From IMG/VR virus record IMGVR_UViG_3300036466_000163, positions 1 through 22,629 of that record: a stretch of 22,629 bases of DNA. One strand, 5' to 3'. Both the position numbers and the translations under genes were made by a program. Under the pieces are notes generated by a model. The model did not search any database. It was not told where the DNA came from and saw nothing but the letters and a program-made list of their open reading frames with translations. Position 1 is the stretch's first letter. The number at the start of each line of letters is the position of its first letter. The stretch is from a virus. Positions 7,964 through 22,197 of the stretch are shown piece after piece.

Positions 7964-8449
7964 CTATTTTATATCTAATAACTGAAGTAGTTTTTTAGCT
8001 TCTTCATAACCCTCTTCGAGTCTATTGTAAGCTGCCTCACTATCTTCAACTATCTTATTTTTATTTTGCATCTCATTGACTACTTTAATTATATCAAATA
8101 TTGAATACGGTTTAGTAAGTGTTTCTATATTATACACGTTCTCATACACTCCAACAAATTCAGCATGTCCAGTTGTTATAATTATGGGTAAAGTCTTAGA
8201 CATAGCACGTATTTCTTTTACTAGATCAATACCACTCATATTAGGCATATTAATATCTGATATAACTATATCTATCTGATGCTTACGCATTTCTTCCATA
8301 GCCTGAACACCATCTTCTGCAGTGTAGACTTTTTCAAACAATAGTCTCAAACTTGATGCTGTTCTTTCTCTTATATCTTTAGCATCTTCAGCATACAACA
8401 CTACATAAGGCTTTTTATGTAAACGTTCCCTGCTTATACTTCTCATCAT
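7964..8449 (-). CDS. CheY-like stand-alone response-regulator receiver
   Basis: A 161-residue protein with one receiver domain (about 14-128) and no DNA-binding or enzymatic output domain. All phosphorylation-site residues are present: acidic pair E21-D22 in YAEDAKD, acceptor D65 in ISDINMP, T93 in ITTGH and K113 in LTKP. The tail (130-160) is a predicted helical coiled coil. A host histidine kinase would presumably phosphorylate it, and it would act by protein contact as CheY or Spo0F do. It sits between the holin gene (10 nt away) and a membrane coiled-coil gene whose TGA overlaps its ATG; two consecutive ATGs occur at 8449 and 8446. The N-terminal wording resembles Campylobacterota receivers, suggesting host origin. 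Its target is unknown. Confidence 0.88.
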   Translation of the reverse strand: MMRSISRERLHKKPYVVLYAEDAKDIRERTASSLRLLFEKVYTAEDGVQAMEEMRKHQIDIVISDINMPNMSGIDLVKEIRAMSKTLPIIITTGHAEFVGVYENVYNIETLTKPYSIFDIIKVVNEMQNKNKIVEDSEAAYNRLEEGYEEAKKLLQLLDIK

Positions 8450-10655: not shown

Positions 10656-11129
10656 TTATTCAACAACACCTACTATATTACCTTTAGCTTCTAAAGCTTT
10701 ATTACTAGCTTCCCTAATTTCATCAATGGTAACAAGGACTATCTTTTGGCCCTCAAACTCCTCAGCTAATTTCCACATTGTTTCTGTTGAACCCAATAAG
10801 TTTGAAGCTTCAATAGCACTTTGTAAATCTATTCTAGCTTCTGTATCTGCATAGAACACTTTACCACTTTCAGTAGTTACTGTAAGTCTTTTAAGAGCTT
10901 CTGCCTTTGCTGTGTCAGCATTATCTCTACTAGTTTGTAATTCTAATTTAGCTACCTTAGCATCTGTTATTTCCACAGGTATTGCTGCACTAAACTCTAT
11001 TTCATCATACGTATAGTATAATTCTGTGCCTTCCATACCCTCTTTAGTTACCTCTTGTACATTGATTCTGTACTTACGTTTTCCGTTTATTTCAACCATC
11101 TCTTGTGGTATTTCGTGTGATTGTATCAT
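10656..11129 (-). CDS. DUF4376-like protein, coupled to the DGR reverse transcriptase
   Basis: A 157-residue soluble protein. The first 60 residues are beta-rich (VEINGKRKYRINVQEV). Residues about 70-150 match the pattern of DUF4376, a domain in phage tail-fibre or baseplate-linked proteins: a helix with AKAEALKRL, the VTTESGKVFYADTEAR turn, an Ala-rich helix, a strand with TMWKLAEEFEGQKIVLV and a final helix. Its ATG (11129) overlaps the RT TGA by ATGA, so translation is coupled. The position just after RT and the fibre gene suggests a fibre-assembly or tail protein. It is not an obvious Avd homologue, but it is the only small protein directly linked to the cassette. Domain assignment is by pattern recognition. 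Confidence 0.65.
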   Translation of the reverse strand: MIQSHEIPQEMVEINGKRKYRINVQEVTKEGMEGTELYYTYDEIEFSAAIPVEITDAKVAKLELQTSRDNADTAKAEALKRLTVTTESGKVFYADTEARIDLQSAIEASNLLGSTETMWKLAEEFEGQKIVLVTIDEIREASNKALEAKGNIVGVVE

Positions 11130-12067
11130 TTTAATTTCCTATTTAATTCTTTTGTTAAGTTATAGCCGTTACAATGCTTTAACCATCCAACATAACTGTG
11201 TAGATTATACTCATTAATCCCTTCGTACGCTGCATCTCGTATCCTGCTTCTAAGTAACACTCTGTTACTATACACTACATACCCTAGGAAATCAAGTCCT
11301 ACTGACTCAGTTATCAAATGTAGCTTAGCATACTTAAGTTTAAGGTCTAATTTATCCATACTATCTAGCACTATTTTATGCACCTTCCATAGTAACTCTT
11401 TATTACTACTTATACATACTATGTCATCGCAGTATCTATAATATGTTATTCCCTGTATAGCACTTATCTCATGATCTAGCCTATTTAAGTATAGGTTCCC
11501 AAAGTATTGGCTTATGTAGTTACCTATAGGTACACCTTTACAACTATCTATTATGTCATCTAGTAACCGCAGCGTACCTGGGCATTTTATCTTCGTACGT
11601 ATTATACTCTTCAACCTATCGTTGCATATTGACGGATAGTACTTAACTACATCTAGTTGTAGGTAGTACATCCCTTCTTTTCCAAGTACTTCTTTACGTA
11701 TCTTCTTCAACGCTTTATGAGGGCCTCTACCTTTCAACGACTGGAATGTATTGGCTATCAATGTCGGTTCCCATATAGGTTCCAGTACTTGCATTATAAC
11801 ATGATGTACAATCCTATCAGGAAAGTACGGTAACTTGTACAATGTACGTAACTTACCTTTGTCAAGTTTATCTTCGATGGTATACTCGCTTGTAGTGAAC
11901 TCTCCACTATCTAGTAATCTATATACCTCATCTAAGTAGTAATCCAGATTACTATCTACTTCTTTTACTTCATCGTAATGTAACTTACCTTTTCTAGCAT
12001 TCTTATGTGCTAGTCTTATATTGTCTTTATCTTTTATCTTCTCGAATAAATATCCGAATCTTTTCAT
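11126..12067 (-). CDS. DGR-type reverse transcriptase
   Basis: A 313-residue reverse transcriptase that should copy the template-repeat RNA with errors at adenines and drive retrohoming into the fibre gene. Motifs in order: RTLYKLPYFPDRIVHH (74-89); palm motif with catalytic D139 in LQLDVVKYYPS; IGNYISQ at 181-187, matching the [IVL]GxxxSQ signature that separates DGR RTs from group II intron RTs (QGxxxSP); the active site YCDD with D214-D215; a lysine-containing primer-grip-like region and LDFLGY at 258-263. There is no endonuclease, maturase or integrase domain, as usual for DGRs. ATG at 12067 lies 130 bp past the TR; its stop overlaps the next gene. Confidence 0.95.
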   Translation of the reverse strand: MKRFGYLFEKIKDKDNIRLAHKNARKGKLHYDEVKEVDSNLDYYLDEVYRLLDSGEFTTSEYTIEDKLDKGKLRTLYKLPYFPDRIVHHVIMQVLEPIWEPTLIANTFQSLKGRGPHKALKKIRKEVLGKEGMYYLQLDVVKYYPSICNDRLKSIIRTKIKCPGTLRLLDDIIDSCKGVPIGNYISQYFGNLYLNRLDHEISAIQGITYYRYCDDIVCISSNKELLWKVHKIVLDSMDKLDLKLKYAKLHLITESVGLDFLGYVVYSNRVLLRSRIRDAAYEGINEYNLHSYVGWLKHCNGYNLTKELNRKLK

Positions 12068-12378
12068 ATTGTGTCATTCCCTACCTGATCTTCGACAATT
12101 AAGCTACCAATCAGTATTGCAGTTTAGTAATTTGTTCTGGCCATAGTTTTTGCCAAGGACATAAACTCCAGTTGTGTTGTTTGTATTTTAAAATGAATTC
12201 CCGTGCCGATATTAGCATTCACATTAGTCGTAGCATTATTACCATTCAGATAAAGTGGTCCTGCAGTCAGTCCAGTAGTAGCATTGCTACCTACTATCGT
12301 ATGTGTTTGTAGTATCTCGGAGTTCACATCCTAGTACATTTTACCTTTCGGAGCCTCAGTACCATTGGCATGTAACCG
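12068..12378 (-). ncRNA. DGR template RNA region (TR plus flanks)
   Basis: The 311-bp stretch between the fibre stop and the RT ATG has no convincing gene and includes the TR. In known DGRs this region is transcribed as the template RNA and its flanks fold to engage the RT. A weak minus-strand TAAAAT (12343-12338) about 35 nt before the TR could be a -10 element, but the RNA may simply be part of fibre-RT read-through. Ends of the RNA cannot be set from sequence. Confidence 0.6.
12197..12302 (-). repeat. DGR template repeat (TR)
   Basis: 106 bp that align without gaps to 12389-12494 at a constant offset of 192. On the minus (coding-sense) strand 34 bases of 12198-12302 are A; 26 of these differ in the VR, and all 71 non-A bases are identical. 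Read in the frame of the fibre it has seven AAT codons and one TAT. The 3' end has TCGGCACGGG, a G/C-rich candidate for the TR side of the homing-initiation site. Confidence 0.95.
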
Positions 12379-12382
12379 TTAC
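12372..12382 (-). other. Dyad next to VR, possible homing-associated structure
   Basis: GTAAC-C-GTTAC lies 6 nt beyond the VR 3' end and contains the fibre stop codon. In BPP-1 and relatives a hairpin or cruciform just past the VR helps target-site recognition. This dyad has only 5-bp arms and a 1-nt centre, so it is a weaker structure than the known ones. The equivalent is absent at the TR end, as expected for a target-only element. Confidence 0.4.
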
Positions 12383-15300
12383 CGGGACACACCCGCGCCG
12401 ACATAAGCATACACAGTAGCCGCAGCAGGATGACCAGCCAGAGAAAGCGGCCCCGCAGTCAGCCCAGCAGCAGCAGTGCCACCCACTATCGCAGCTCTTA
12501 GTCCTGTATTTGAATAGTAATAGTCAGTTGTTCCTGTACTACTTGATCCACCAGACACGCTTACTGGTATGAATCCTTTACTCGTATTAGCTAGTTCCCT
12601 AGCATACCCATTTGCACTTCCACCAGTCACTCCACTATCAGTATACCCATTAGTAGTTAGCGATGTATCATCAAATGTAGCTGGACTGTTGCTTAAATGA
12701 TACTTTCTTTCATTTATGTTTATACCATCTAACCATTTCCATACGTTACCGAAGAAGTTCTCACATCCTCTGTATGTCATGTAGCTTCCATCGGCTGCAG
12801 CATCATTAGCATTACCTGTATATGTTACATTGTTTGTACCATTACCGTCACTGTTACTTAGTCCATTGATTCCGATGAAGCTTCCGCCTGTCCAGCTTCC
12901 TCCACTTAGTGCAGTTCTACCTTGCCCTAAAGCACTCTGTATATTCATTGTACCGTACTCGATTATCATCAGTAGCGTAATTGCTTCATATAATGCAAAG
13001 TCAATCTGATGCCATCCTGTACCGTTAGCTTCTGCATATGTTCTAGCAGTAGTTCTACTTATACTTGTAGTAGGATAGACTCCACTTATACTTTTCAGTA
13101 CTCCTCCATCGTTGTGCCCTAAGTACGCTGGGTAGTATCTGTAGTCTACCTCTACCCCATCTTTTACGAATGCCCAATGTACAGGATACCCATCACTACT
13201 ATTCAGACTAACTGAGTGGCTGTGTATAGTGTTGCCTGTTGTTAAGTAGTTATATCCGTAGTAGAACTTAGGTACCTCTACCATTACATTTCCATCTGTA
13301 CCGTCTAAGTTTGCAGCTGTGCCATCAGTCTTCTTTGTACTATCGAACGGATCTAAGTAGTAGTTAACTGAACCATCTGCATTTAGTACACATCTCTTCA
13401 TCATTGATTGTATTGCAGTGTAGTTACTAGCACCTGTTCTAGTATACTCATCTGCTGTCTGATCCCAGTTTAGTCCGTAGAAGCTAGTGTACTGTGCTCT
13501 AGGATCTAGCCTGTCTGCCAGTATTTCAACCACCTCTACTTTTGTATACGTTGTAGTCTTATCTGCTTTTGAGTTCAATGCAACTTGACCAGCAGTACTG
13601 ATTGGTTTATCAGTATCACTAGTATTATCTACATTTCCCAAACCTACTTGTGCCTTTGTTACTCCGTGAGGGTTTGCCGTGCTAGAAATATGCGATTGTA
13701 TATTTGCATTTTTAGGTTCAAAGTTTGTGTTACTCTCATTCTTAGTATAATGGTTATCCAAAGCACTTGCAAGCTCCCCACTATTAACAAAGTCCGATAA
13801 ATCAACTGTTACCTCAGCCACACCATCAGCACTTGTTAAAGTTAGCACATTTGTTGTAGCATCAAGTGTTGCACCGCTTACGTGTACATCAGTTATTATA
13901 TCATTTATATTTAGTTCAGATGTTGTACTATCTGTGTAAGTAATTACTAGCCTATTATTTAAGGCATTAGTTACTACATTCTTAACTTTATTTGTAGTTA
14001 ATAGCGTAAGAAGCGCATCTGTTAAAGCATTTGTATCAGCGTTTGACTCATAAGCTGTTTTAATCTCTTCTGCTGTTTGATCATCTTTAGCATTCGTCTC
14101 TATTGTATCTAACTTGATTTTATCAGCAGATGTAAGCAGCCCAGCCTCAGTATCTGTTACTTCTGGTAAGGTAGCATCAGTTCCATCTGAACTTGTCACA
14201 TCAAGCGTATTTGCAGTTCTGTTTGCTACTGCTAAATCTGTGGTTTCTGATTCTAGTGCTGTAACTCTACCTTCCACGATGTCTAACTCATCATGCACTT
14301 CATTAACAGCTGTTGGTAATGTAGTCGCAGTAGTTGCTAATACTGTAGCAACATCAACCAGTAACTTCTCAGCATCTGTATATTTGTTAGTGTTTGTTAA
14401 GCCTTCATACAGTCCTTCTATTTCATTAGCAGTCTGGTCTGCTGTGGCACCATCTTCTATACCAGCAAGTTTAGTTGTATTTAGTGTTACTTGTGTACTA
14501 TCTCCTACAGCTGTGTCAAAGTCACTAATAGTGGATGCAAGCTGCGTACCAGTATGGTTATTCCTATACCTATTTGCGATATCCCTAGAATCAAGCTGTG
14601 CAGATGTTTCTAATGTATCCAGCTTAGCTTTCTCAGCATCACTATAAACGTTTGTATCAGCATTTGCTTCATATAGTGACTTTACATCTGATGCATTTAG
14701 AGTATTACTAACCATAGCGTATATTGAACCAGTCCATCTGTATGAGCTTGTATCCCCTCCGCTAGTTTCATCTGCCACTACTACATAGATCTTACCTGTC
14801 TCACCAGAAACTGGTAAATCAGCATATGTTGCAACTTCTACCACATCATCTACATAGCTTGGTAATTGTTCTGCAGTAACTTTACCCGATTCGTCTAGAC
14901 CAGCCAAACCATTTGGTTGTCCTATTCTATCATCAAATAGCGCTCCTTCAGCAGTTAGCATATCATTTAATACTTGAGTATTTACTTGTACTATTACATC
15001 ATAAGGATTTGTCTTTACTGTAAGTTCTATAGTTTTACTGTCGTACACTGTGTAGTCTACATTTTCAGTCAACAAAGTACCATTTGCATAGTATATGTAG
15101 TTTGCATCTGTTGTGTCTAGAAACGTTATCATATGTGTAGCTGTTTTAGCCACATACTCATCAAGTATTCCCATAAAGTTCCTAGTTTTTATCATTTCTA
15201 CTATTCTATCTGCATAAGCGTAGTTTATTTCACTGAGTCTTTCAATGTGATTTTCATTGTATTGGTCCATCTTTAACGAGTCATTAATATTATATGAGCT

Positions 15301-16029
15301 TAGCTTATCAGTGTGATTATCATTATATTGATTTAACTTACTTAACGCATTAGCATTGTACTCACCTACTTTAGCAGTTGAATGTGTACCTAATTCAGTT
15401 TTTTCTAGCTCTGCTTGTGCATCTATTTCATCTATTTTTGTATTTGTATACGTAGCAATTTCTTGCTTTTTTGTTACTACCGTTGCATCAAATGAATTAC
15501 TTATTCCTTGAGCAGTTGCAACTGCATCCAGCACATCTTGTTTTGCTTCTAACGTTTCTTGCACACCAACATTTGTACTAACTTTTGAATCTACTAATGC
15601 ATCTAAATTTAGTAGGTTAGTATTTGTTACAACTACACCGTCTACCGTTACTGTACACTTTAAGTTTCCAGAATCATATAGTATTGCTACTTCTGGGGTA
15701 AACCCATCATCACCATCAGTCCCATTTGTTCCTTGTGGTATTCCTATCTGCCACACACCATTTACTAATGAACTAGTAGCATCACTTCCGGCAGGTAACG
15801 TTGTAACCTCAACATTTAAGTTTTCAAGTATTGCTACTGCTTGATCAAATGTACCAGCACTTTCTGTAATTATTCCATATTTAGCAAGTATGTCTCCATA
15901 TATTCCCGGATTTCCATTTGTATCTGCAACTGTTAATTCATACCATATTCCATCTGTTAAAGGTTTACCAGGTGCTGCAGAACCTCGAACTTCTCTTAAA
16001 ATATCTAAAAAATCCCTTTGTCTAGTCAT
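12379..16029 (-). CDS. Tail fibre / receptor-binding protein with DGR-diversified C-type-lectin-like tip
   Basis: A 1216-residue fibre. ATG at 16029 is chosen over a longer frame (to 16110) because GGGAGG precedes it and the upstream gene stops 1 nt before. The N-terminus (1-160) has Gly/Asp-rich short strands (IPQGTNGTDG). A coiled-coil region follows with repeated QYN.NH...KL units (about 200-270). The shaft (about 440-830) contains TDAEK.KLDTIE repeats and NPHGVTKAQVGLGNVDNTSD, a classic phage-fibre repeat. The last 330 residues resemble FGE-sulfatase/C-type-lectin folds of DGR targets, with GNVWKW at 1094-1099 and GLR just before the VR at 1179-1214. It should bind the host receptor, the VR residues forming the contact surface. 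It is followed by TR and RT. Confidence 0.93.
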   Translation of the reverse strand: MTRQRDFLDILREVRGSAAPGKPLTDGIWYELTVADTNGNPGIYGDILAKYGIITESAGTFDQAVAILENLNVEVTTLPAGSDATSSLVNGVWQIGIPQGTNGTDGDDGFTPEVAILYDSGNLKCTVTVDGVVVTNTNLLNLDALVDSKVSTNVGVQETLEAKQDVLDAVATAQGISNSFDATVVTKKQEIATYTNTKIDEIDAQAELEKTELGTHSTAKVGEYNANALSKLNQYNDNHTDKLSSYNINDSLKMDQYNENHIERLSEINYAYADRIVEMIKTRNFMGILDEYVAKTATHMITFLDTTDANYIYYANGTLLTENVDYTVYDSKTIELTVKTNPYDVIVQVNTQVLNDMLTAEGALFDDRIGQPNGLAGLDESGKVTAEQLPSYVDDVVEVATYADLPVSGETGKIYVVVADETSGGDTSSYRWTGSIYAMVSNTLNASDVKSLYEANADTNVYSDAEKAKLDTLETSAQLDSRDIANRYRNNHTGTQLASTISDFDTAVGDSTQVTLNTTKLAGIEDGATADQTANEIEGLYEGLTNTNKYTDAEKLLVDVATVLATTATTLPTAVNEVHDELDIVEGRVTALESETTDLAVANRTANTLDVTSSDGTDATLPEVTDTEAGLLTSADKIKLDTIETNAKDDQTAEEIKTAYESNADTNALTDALLTLLTTNKVKNVVTNALNNRLVITYTDSTTSELNINDIITDVHVSGATLDATTNVLTLTSADGVAEVTVDLSDFVNSGELASALDNHYTKNESNTNFEPKNANIQSHISSTANPHGVTKAQVGLGNVDNTSDTDKPISTAGQVALNSKADKTTTYTKVEVVEILADRLDPRAQYTSFYGLNWDQTADEYTRTGASNYTAIQSMMKRCVLNADGSVNYYLDPFDSTKKTDGTAANLDGTDGNVMVEVPKFYYGYNYLTTGNTIHSHSVSLNSSDGYPVHWAFVKDGVEVDYRYYPAYLGHNDGGVLKSISGVYPTTSISRTTARTYAEANGTGWHQIDFALYEAITLLMIIEYGTMNIQSALGQGRTALSGGSWTGGSFIGINGLSNSDGNGTNNVTYTGNANDAAADGSYMTYRGCENFFGNVWKWLDGININERKYHLSNSPATFDDTSLTTNGYTDSGVTGGSANGYARELANTSKGFIPVSVSGGSSSTGTTDYYYSNTGLRAAIVGGTAAAGLTAGPLSLAGHPAAATVYAYVGAGVSR
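12389..12494 (-). repeat. DGR variable repeat (VR) in the fibre gene 3' end
   Basis: Recipient copy encoding about fibre residues 1179-1214, ending 8 nt before the stop codon. Changes relative to the TR on the minus strand are 15 A-to-G, 8 A-to-C and 3 A-to-T. All seven AAT codons are altered (to Thr, Ala, His, Pro, Thr, Tyr, Tyr) and TAT became TCT. These substitutions make the segment conspicuously GC-rich in an AT-rich genome. Confidence 0.95.
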
Positions 16030-19614: not shown

Positions 19615-19741
19615 CTATTTCCTCCACTATTGAGTCCAATGTATCCCTTAGTTCATCTAGTTGATCTATTGTAGGCTCTATCCCTTGGTCAACTAACCTA
19701 TCTTCTAATAGGTCAACTAATTCATCTATTAACTCTGTCAT
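19607..19741 (-). CDS. 44-residue acidic helical protein
   Basis: A short frame from ATG 19741 to TAA 19607. Its ATG overlaps the PhoH TGA (ATGA) and its end overlaps the next gene start by 8 nt, leaving no room for chance spacer. The protein (MTELIDELVDLLEDRLVDQG... and ELRDTLDSIVEEIDG at the end) is nearly all helix with Leu/Ile and Asp/Glu alternating in heptads, net negative. Coupling on both sides supports expression. Role unknown; it could be a small helical adaptor. Confidence 0.7.
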   Translation of the reverse strand: MTELIDELVDLLEDRLVDQGIEPTIDQLDELRDTLDSIVEEIDG

Positions 19742-21123
19742 TTGTTTCCCTTATTTACAAATAATTTTTCAGTATATTCTGCCATAGGACTTCTAACAAC
19801 TTTCTTTAGCTCTATAGCAAACTGACTTATTTCTGTATCTATTAATCTCTCCCTAGCTTCGCCTTGCAGTACAGCCAACCCATTATTATATTTTGTTACA
19901 TACGGTGAATCTATCTGTCTTTGTGACCCAATTACTACCACTTTACAGTTTTTACCAATTCTTGTTAGTACTTTTTGTGTAGTTCCTTGACCAGCATTTT
20001 GCCACTCATCCATAATTACTATTGTGTTGTGGAATGTTCTACCTCTTAATCCAGTACTTATCATTGACTCAATTTGGTAGTCTTGTTTCATCTTATTAAT
20101 ATTTTCCTGTACCAGATTTTCATACTCTGCTTTATCCTGACTCTTTTTTGGTTTGTATTTAGATCTTACTATGAAGTCAATCGTGTCTTCCATTGGTCCA
20201 AGATACATAGCATACTTCTCATCATTACCTGATAAGAATCCAATTTCTTCTGCTTTATTTTCTTCATCATTTACGGGAGTTCTTATGTAAACTATTGAGT
20301 CATACTTATCTTTATTAGTGTTCATTAATTTAATAGCATTACTAAGTGCTACTATATTTTTACCACTCCCAGCTTGACCTTCTACTATTACCATATCTAT
20401 TAATGGATCTAGTATTGCTTTACTTGCTAATAGCTGTTCACTATTAATCGGAGCACAGTCTTGCTGTCTTATTGCTTTTTCTGTATCTTTGCCAAGTACT
20501 TTAATGAACCCATTGTGTACTGTAGCTAATTTCATTTGTCCACTATACTTATCTGTAAACTTGTAACTATAGTTTTCCAACTTGTATTCCGGATCCACCA
20601 ACATTATGTCTGAATCATGTAGTGTTCTGAACATTTCTGGGTCTGTTAGAAACAATTCTTTAACAAATTCAAACTCAGCATCATCAATTAACTTTAAGTC
20701 AATTACATTTAACCCAATTGCTAGTGCTCTTAATCTTGCCATCACATCATTTGTAATGAATGTAGTTTTACCATATCTATCATATGTTCTTTGTGCAACT
20801 TGTATTATTCTTTGATCATTTGCACCTGAATCATTGCTGTCCACTGTATATTCATTTAGTGACACCACTTCTATTTGCACATCACCATAGGTTAATTTAG
20901 TAATCACACAATCATGGGCTTTTTCCACTTCACCAATATCACATGCAGCTAGTATTCGTCCCATCTGTCTTGCTTGATAAGCAAGTTCTCCGAACCCACT
21001 CTTTTTATTATCACATTCTTGAATTACTGTTTCTGCTAACACGATTATGTTATCTTTACCAAGTGTTAATATGTTATTAGCATCTAGCAATACTATGTTG
21101 CTATCTAATACTACCCTATTCAT
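19738..21123 (-). CDS. phoH: PIN-PhoH fusion ATPase/ribonuclease
   Basis: A 461-residue two-domain protein. The N-terminal PIN domain (about 1-150) has all four acidic metal-site residues: D7 in VVLDSNIVL, E36 in VIQECDN, D103 in GANDQRI, D126 in TNDVMAR. The PhoH ATPase domain (about 225-440) has Walker A GQAGSGKN at 249-256, TPVND at 282-286, Walker B IVIMDEWQN at 368-376, and a GSQRQID sensor-like motif. PIN-PhoH (PhoH2) proteins are RNA-unwinding and cleaving enzymes; phoH is a widespread auxiliary gene in marine phages. An oddity is Asn in place of the usual Thr/Ser in Walker A. ATG at 21123 follows AAGGATTCGG. Confidence 0.9.
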   Translation of the reverse strand: MNRVVLDSNIVLLDANNILTLGKDNIIVLAETVIQECDNKKSGFGELAYQARQMGRILAACDIGEVEKAHDCVITKLTYGDVQIEVVSLNEYTVDSNDSGANDQRIIQVAQRTYDRYGKTTFITNDVMARLRALAIGLNVIDLKLIDDAEFEFVKELFLTDPEMFRTLHDSDIMLVDPEYKLENYSYKFTDKYSGQMKLATVHNGFIKVLGKDTEKAIRQQDCAPINSEQLLASKAILDPLIDMVIVEGQAGSGKNIVALSNAIKLMNTNKDKYDSIVYIRTPVNDEENKAEEIGFLSGNDEKYAMYLGPMEDTIDFIVRSKYKPKKSQDKAEYENLVQENINKMKQDYQIESMISTGLRGRTFHNTIVIMDEWQNAGQGTTQKVLTRIGKNCKVVVIGSQRQIDSPYVTKYNNGLAVLQGEARERLIDTEISQFAIELKKVVRSPMAEYTEKLFVNKGNK

Positions 21124-21191: not shown

Positions 21192-21590
21192 TTAATTAAT
21201 TAGATCTGCCATCCAATTTTGCCATTTATACACCTTATCACTACCAGGCAACTTCATATTTCCTTCATACCAGTACTTTTCTAGAACCACATATAGTGCT
21301 TCTATCTTTTGGTTGTTCCATAGTGTTAATTCTTCACTATATTCACCTATTATTGCTGTTATCCCAACTTCTGACCATAAGTAGTCTATTGCTTCTTGTC
21401 CATCGATTACTGATTCTACAGCAGTAATCATTGCTAATCCAGTATCTTTACCACCTTTCCACAAGTGGTACACACATATATTTACTGGCGCTTTATCGTA
21501 TTTACTAGGCTCCAGTACTTTTACCTTCATCTCATATAATTCTTCAGTAGTCCAGAACTCATCTGGTAACCTATCTTGTGCTTCATACAT
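21192..21590 (-). CDS. Unknown protein downstream of GIY-YIG gene
   Basis: A 132-residue acidic, Trp/Tyr-rich soluble protein (LSEFW-like N-terminal motif DEFWTTEELYEM, then VYHLWKGGKDTG and WYEGNMKLPG). No known motif. Its ATG overlaps the TAA of the GIY-YIG gene by the TAATG arrangement. Function unknown; coupling to an endonuclease gene may be a by-product of insertion. Confidence 0.55.
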   Translation of the reverse strand: MYEAQDRLPDEFWTTEELYEMKVKVLEPSKYDKAPVNICVYHLWKGGKDTGLAMITAVESVIDGQEAIDYLWSEVGITAIIGEYSEELTLWNNQKIEALYVVLEKYWYEGNMKLPGSDKVYKWQNWMADLIN

Positions 21591-21985
21591 TATAAACTTA
21601 CCTCAAATTTTTTAGTCGGAGCATAGTCTTCTGCTATCGCTCTATCGTATATATCTAGTAGTAAACCTTCATCCATTTTTCTAAGCTCGGATTCACCACA
21701 CAATTCACCAAACCCCAAACTACACCTGTGCTTCTCAGTTTGTTTTAGTATTTTTGCCTCTATAGCATAATTGTCTTTTGTTTGCTTTTGTCGCAGTATC
21801 TCTATCTTTGGGATGTGTCCAAGCACTCCTAGTAATTCACCAGCTATCTCCAATATTCTGGTTTTTACCATTCTATTTGTAGTGCCCGGTTTAAAAACCG
21901 TTCCAGTATTCGTGTATATCTTTATGATGTATACCCAACCGTCATACTTCTCTTTGGGCTTTGTCCAATGTTTCTTTTTAGACAT
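21590..21985 (-). CDS. Small GIY-YIG-like endonuclease
   Basis: A 131-residue protein, start ATG at 21985 (a longer frame to 22045 would overlap the preceding gene). The GIY-YIG core is recognisable though divergent: WVYIIKI (17-23) for the GIY strand, VFKPGTTN (30-37) in place of the YIG part, R43 in KTRILEI as the catalytic Arg, E76 in YAIEAKIL as the metal-binding Glu, and GFGELCGESEL (91-101) near the C-terminus as in T5orf172-type proteins. No attached DNA-binding domain, but the preceding gene encodes one. Likely a free-standing mobile or repair nuclease. Confidence 0.7.
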   Translation of the reverse strand: MSKKKHWTKPKEKYDGWVYIIKIYTNTGTVFKPGTTNRMVKTRILEIAGELLGVLGHIPKIEILRQKQTKDNYAIEAKILKQTEKHRCSLGFGELCGESELRKMDEGLLLDIYDRAIAEDYAPTKKFEVSL

Positions 21986-22197
21986 TAGTGGTCCTCGCCT
22001 GCGGCTGCGGAAGCATGAACTAACCATCTTCCGTACATATCCCAACTAGCTCCTTGCCAGCACCTTTTTAATTCTTTAGCAATGGTATTCTCTTTACGTA
22101 CATTACCAAGTTTTGCTTCTTCAGCAATTATATACCTAGCTGCTGCTCTTGCACTTGGGTACTCAACACCATTAACTATTATTGGTTTTGATTTCAT
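21985..22197 (-). CDS. NUMOD1-like small DNA-binding protein
   Basis: A 70-residue protein whose wording matches the NUMOD1-type helix-turn-helix that normally trails homing endonucleases: VNGVEYPSARAAARYI (8-23), then KENTIAKELKR (35-45), and closing WDMYGRWL (52-59). The first helix resembles the nuclease-associated 'SxxxAAxxL' pattern. Its TAA overlaps the ATG of the GIY-YIG gene (TAATG), and GGAGG precedes its own start. Here the specificity module appears as a separate gene rather than fused. Confidence 0.65.
   Translation of the reverse strand: MKSKPIIVNGVEYPSARAAARYIIAEEAKLGNVRKENTIAKELKRCWQGASWDMYGRWLVHASAAAGEDH

Follow-up and report, generated by a model that had tools for sequence, protein, structure and literature searches.

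We describe here a diversity-generating retroelement (DGR) of a phage whose reverse transcriptase (RT) belongs to a clade that appears to read template adenines in two states. A template A that is not preceded by A and is followed by C or G is termed a rule site. With a probability that we put at roughly 0.6, this RT clade, or its ribonucleoproteins (RNPs), turns rule-site A into G in about 90-97% of cases and randomises the adenines of AAT codons; template and enzyme would have coevolved, AAT serving these phages as AAC serves Bordetella-type elements, and the Avd-less machinery would include a covarying helix that holds the flanks of the template repeat (TR) together. Taken alone, the element adds another case to the known phage DGRs, and it is the comparative result that would matter. 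The size of a DGR library is usually given as 4 to the power of the number of template adenines, but of the 34 here, only about 20 look random, the remaining 14 or so acting like fixed edits. If the two-state reading is correct, the error code of DGR RTs differs by clade, template codon choice follows this code, and there is an RT that, in a simple sequence context, nearly always converts A to G. The general A-to-G excess of DGRs (PMC3521204, PMC6642488) and context effects of bRT, the RT of BPP-1 (PMC12875486), are already known. In a literature that included few subscription papers and not the structural work on the Bordetella RNP, we found neither an A-to-G class that is nearly fixed nor the AAT/AAC switch reported, and the novelty of both is thus provisional.

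The window, that is, the whole stretch of DNA analysed, is the complete IMG/VR record of 22,629 bases (36% G+C) and probably represents a phage fragment. Its minus-strand genes include a terminase, an SU10-type portal, a major head protein, PhoH and a fibre; the relatives of the portal in named phages all fall below 60% identity (best, 38% in Kosakonia phage Kc283). In the order of the coding strand, the fibre gene with the variable repeat (VR) at its end is followed by 86 nt, the TR, 129 nt and the RT gene (Table 1). A previous reading had delimited the element to 11126-12494. This interval does contain the RT, the TR and the VR, but most of the target gene, which reaches up to the ATG at 16029, lies outside it. 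Elsewhere on the minus strand, 7964-8449 codes for a CheY-like single-domain response regulator (Pfam Response_reg, E 2e-20), located amid small genes near the lysis region and within the part shared with sister contig L064. The gene at 19738-21123 (-) fuses a PIN domain to a PhoH-type ATPase (Pfam PIN_4 and PhoH), as in PhoH2-like phage proteins, and the product of 21590-22045 (-) has a weak T5orf172 match below the cut-off (E 0.012), possibly representing a GIY-YIG-like phage protein.

Table 1. Features of the element, in window coordinates.
Feature	Position	Strand	Basis
Target gene, tail-fibre-like, 1216 aa	12379..16029	-	ORF; PHROG 5302; VR at 3' end
Target C-terminal 320 aa, predicted C-type-lectin fold with VR	12382..13341	-	AlphaFold2, Foldseek
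Variable repeat (VR)	12389..12494	-	26/34 template A changed, 0/72 others
H1 5' arm, AGGATGTGAACTCCG, VR-TR interval	12318..12332	-	Pairing with 12156-12170; own-versus-cross test
Template repeat (TR)	12197..12302	-	Alignment with VR
H1 3' arm, TGGAGTTTATGTCCT	12156..12170	-	Pairing with 12318-12332
TR-RT spacer RNA, RT-17-like	12061..12173	-	Covariance model; weak RF03020 match
Spacer-RNA hairpin TGTC-CTT-GGCA	12151-12161	-	
Spacer-RNA GGTAG...CGAA core	12087-12112	-	
DGR reverse transcriptase, 313 aa	11126..12067	-	RVT_1, PHROG 1423, tree

The gapless TR/VR alignment of 106 nt (offset +192) noticed by the sequence-only reading was confirmed, as was its claim that only adenines differ: 8 template adenines are kept in the VR, 15 became G, 8 became C and 3 became T. 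No other template base changed; these total 72 over 106 nt (28 T, 25 G and 19 C) and not 71 over 105 as first counted. The outermost 2-3 nt at either end of the match could be chance. By the hypergeometric distribution, the chance of each of the 26 mismatches being at an A is 4.6e-18, and third-position, silent adenines were changed in six of seven cases. Adenines were also changed inside the G+C-rich ends, GTCGGCGCGGG in the VR and ATCGGCACGGG in the TR, which are candidates for IMH and IMH*. With A ignored, the window holds no other match to the TR, the next best having 35 mismatches in the 72 non-A positions, and the exact A-masked TR pattern has no second copy among 2.9 million viral contigs.

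The RT frame is intact, and its product shows PIGNYISQ and YRYCDD, which contain the DGR hallmarks pointed out before (IGNYISQ and YCDD) and correspond to the SQ motif (IGNxxSQ) and the catalytic xDD motif of the DGR clade. Profile searches matched RVT_1 (E 2e-19) and the RT family PHROG 1423 (E 1e-82), and the best relative in the PDB was 8ub7, the Bordetella DGR RT (E 2e-24); group II RTs scored 1e-11 or worse. In a maximum-likelihood tree that included named DGR and group II intron RTs, and no authenticated retron, the RT sits with the named DGR RTs, separated from the group II introns by a 100/100 split, in line with the earlier expectation. Of note, the RT of Shewanella phage vB_Sb_QDWS (678-1709), annotated as 'retron-type', clusters in this tree with its counterpart from the Bordetella DGR, and its annotation looks doubtful. 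These data leave almost no room for a plain duplication followed by drift, which the adenine-only substitution pattern (the above P of 4.6e-18) already refutes, or for a group II intron, retron or defence RT lying beside a chance repeat. NCBIfam and PADLOC models of such RTs do cross-match, but all far below the NCBIfam cut-offs, and this RT, besides its tree placement, has IGNYISQ in the place of QGxxxSP.

Relatives with the same layout likewise differ between TR and VR at adenines only, and an adenine-only repeat pair lies directly upstream of the RT in most of 80 RT relatives from IMG/VR. The adenine-specific mutagenic retrohoming originally proposed is thus supported by a complete set of parts, by the position of the RT among DGR RTs and by the same pattern in relatives. 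The accessory protein Avd, a four-helix bundle (PF05635), is absent from the record, and there is no avd gene between VR and RT; as the record is possibly a fragment, a distant Avd homologue may lie elsewhere in the phage. After the VR, no stem of at least 6 bp was found within 70 nt, whereas the BPP-1 control gave 8-10 bp. Altogether, the element is very probably a complete, Avd-less phage DGR in which cDNA made from the TR would replace the VR of a tail fibre.

The VR forms the 3' end of the target gene, the stop codon lying 7 nt past it. For the start of this gene, ATG 16029 was preferred to GTG 16110, since this ATG and the stop codon of the preceding gene (16031) overlap. A tail protein (PHROG 5302, E 4e-81) is matched by residues 742-1240 of the longer frame. 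A single-sequence AlphaFold model of the fibre end reached a pLDDT of only 30; when AlphaFold2 was run again with 37 relatives, the C-terminal 320 aa were modelled with a pLDDT of 92 and a pTM of 0.91. The closest match of this model is TaqVP, a variable protein of a DGR (Foldseek E 3e-13, VIA Z 27.1), followed by TvpA (Z 13.0) and Mtd (Z 12.1), and the fibre C-terminus is therefore predicted to adopt a C-type-lectin fold of the formylglycine-generating-enzyme type. The variable proteins of Thermus aquaticus (TaqVP), Treponema (TvpA) and BPP-1 (Mtd) thus have the same fold as the VR-bearing domain of the studied fibre (Z 27, 13 and 12, respectively), but TaqVP shares only 18-22% identity with the studied domain, which ends a phage fibre of 1216 aa.

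The two-state pattern emerged from the RT clade to which the window belongs. Rates at rule sites were drawn from assembled consensus sequences with the studied phage left out, and L003, whose VR has an in-frame length difference, was excluded from the final counts. In this clade, 91.4% of the rule sites are G in the VR (n=198, bootstrap 87-95%), whereas 44% of the other adenines are kept as A and 26.6% became G. In the window, 12 of the 14 rule sites are G and the other two (12295 and 12267) A, as against 3 G among the 20 other adenines (P 6.6e-6 for the rule sites under the other-A rate), and every A-to-C and A-to-T change falls at a non-rule A. The earlier attribution of the 26 changes to mutagenic copying thus holds in that they are adenine-only, but they are not all random, 12 of them lying at rule sites. 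In a tree of 120 RTs, 19 of the 20 RTs of one clade, window included, follow the rule; the crAss-like group has it only here and there or in part, and the Bordetella and ANMV-1 groups mostly keep A at rule sites (66% and 58% at BAC, 60% and 84% at BAG, respectively). One exception is L004, where only four of seven rule sites follow the rule. The two VRs of L006, which share one TR, agree at 8 of 10 rule sites and at 4 of 22 other adenines. Likewise, near-clade sister pairs without L003/L004 show no difference at rule sites and many at other adenines. In L006 (3385-5686), two target genes lie in tandem; each contains a VR, and the single TR feeds both. L041 carries three VRs.

The codons of the templates follow the same division. 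In the rule clade, the randomised TR codon is AAT rather than AAC (201:11, vs 348:243 in the same genes), and this preference extends to phages with 54-59% G+C. In the Bordetella group the TR codons are reversed, with an AAC:AAT ratio of 492:52. In addition, 21 of the 29 non-A mismatches of the clade are T-to-G, i.e., C in the cDNA, which suggests an occasional insertion of C opposite template U. VRs with non-A differences, mostly T-to-G, were seen in L016, L019, L021, L023, L027 and L028.

A-to-G is the commonest change in DGRs generally (PMC3521204, PMC6642488), and some rule sites belong to codons of conserved residues, CAG changed to CGG being an example. That the DGR is ordinary and its RT slightly biased towards G, with rule sites looking special only because the lectin scaffold requires codons containing G, is nevertheless improbable. 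At four-fold silent rule sites, 68 of 71 are G and a single A is kept, and protein selection is hence not the cause of the rule. Moreover, CAC, CAG, GAC, GAG, TAC and TAG behave alike in the rule clade, each giving G in 86-92% of cases. Related TRs also exchange A and G at rule sites while the VR has G in both, as would follow if the rule-clade RT did not distinguish A from G there. Other causes were rejected as well: slippage to the neighbouring base would yield C, not G, at AC, and selection, recent TR mutation and TR/VR drift are at odds with the silent sites and with the lack of changes to C or T.

Deaminase editing of A to I in the TR RNA before copying is a somewhat less probable source of the rule-site G. 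A near-complete A-to-G change in a defined neighbour context is what editing could be expected to give; however, the trait tracks the RT tree across phages of 28-59% G+C, presumably from many hosts, and a scan of proteins from the window gave no recognisable deaminase. In addition, the rare T-to-G changes suggest that the RT misinserts C, and such changes are left unexplained by editing of adenines. Misreading by the RT and A-to-I editing would leave the same mark in these sequences, but we infer that the RT itself probably causes the rule.

A second finding concerns the RNA around the TR. The helix H1 has 15 paired positions, some of them G-U, and appears in both the MFE and centroid folds. 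In relatives, the stretch before the TR is complementary to the stretch after it, though the sequences differ between loci: duplexes of a locus's own 5' and 3' arms have a mean of -23.2 kcal/mol, compared with -17.8 (sd 0.7) for cross-locus arms, a difference matched in none of 50,000 permutations. H1 is not universal, being absent at L029, L034 and L036 in one such comparison. The MFE of the whole TR transcript is ordinary relative to shuffles (z -1.06), so the support for H1 comes from the between-locus permutation and not from folding energy. Past the 3' arm of H1 come first a short hairpin and then a GGTAG...CGAA core. This spacer RNA was found by a covariance model built from 19 relatives with the window left out (27.9 bits, E 5e-4). 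An Rfam scan of the whole window yielded nothing at E 1; in a focused search, RF03020 (RT-17) matched at 18.8 bits (E 0.39), below its 40.4-bit cut-off, and five rule-clade relatives exceed this cut-off in the TR-RT spacer. The window matches RT-17 over its whole length and at the same, syntenic place, but the Rfam model begins after H1 and includes nothing upstream of the TR.

By analogy with BPP-1, the TR would be transcribed together with its flanks, and the spacer RNA would recruit the RT, as in other DGRs, and provide the primer from which the TR is copied. During copying, the rule-clade RT would randomise an A that stands before A or T, or after A, and would read an A almost always as G where C or G follows and no A precedes, as the substitution pattern suggests. 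H1, a conserved helix between the two flanks, probably holds both ends of the TR together, and it may halt the RT about 15 nt beyond the TR, thus ending cDNA synthesis. Both roles are proposed because BPP-1 has an analogous flanking helix and because its avd gene reportedly carries, in its 3' end, a motif that terminates reverse transcription in that region (PMC12875486). The cDNA would then replace the VR in the terminal part of the tail-fibre gene, and the outcome would be variation of the receptor-facing lectin surface of the fibre.

The BPP-1 system (Mtd/Avd/bRT) shares with the studied element the adenine-specific difference between TR and VR, the lectin-fold target and the RT family, and its TR flanks are likewise paired (best helix score 35, vs a shuffle maximum of 32.5). 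In contrast, the studied element has neither Avd nor a stem-loop after the VR, its randomised codon is AAT and not AAC, and A before C or G is read as G. In cells, bRT makes about 31% errors and shows raised G misinsertion (A-to-C) at AC (PMC12875486). The DGRs of crAss-like phages (crAssphage LMMB, PMC7290462; 'lineage 3' RTs) have the same target-VR-TR-RT order, no avd and likewise a tail-protein target, and their RTs are 37-44% identical to that of the window, but the target gene is another one. There, A before G is fixed to G (98% at CAG), but the A of TAC mostly stays A; the two-state rule is therefore only partly common to the crAss-like group.

The element had also been described as recently active. 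The zero non-A changes in 72 positions, together with the changes at silent adenines, speak for copying from the present TR, and sister phages among the relatives differ almost only inside the VR. Thus, the pairs L003/L004, L027/L028 and L036/L037, each with identical TRs, show no differences in 12,733, 1,936 and 7,402 nt outside TR/VR, respectively, and 17, 22 and 4 differences in the VR (the last in 41 nt of VR). The lineage is therefore active. For the studied phage itself, activity is counted as inferred, because no second copy of its own VR was found: a search of 2.9 million viral contigs gave no second VR allele, and contig L064, nearly identical to the window (98.9% over 6.1 kb), breaks off within the RT. 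This lack of a second allele would also suit a DGR that has decayed or fallen silent and left its VR as a fossil of earlier activity, as would the long end branch of the RT (1.04, vs 0.53-0.67 in its sisters). Such a fossil is very unlikely, given that none of the 72 non-A positions differs, the RT frame and motifs and the target frame are intact, and the spacer RNA is recognised. Finally, the VRs of the otherwise identical phages L003 (5601-5709) and L004 (5604-5709) differ not only in sequence but also in length, by one codon, and retrohoming or the RT may thus produce in-frame length changes too.
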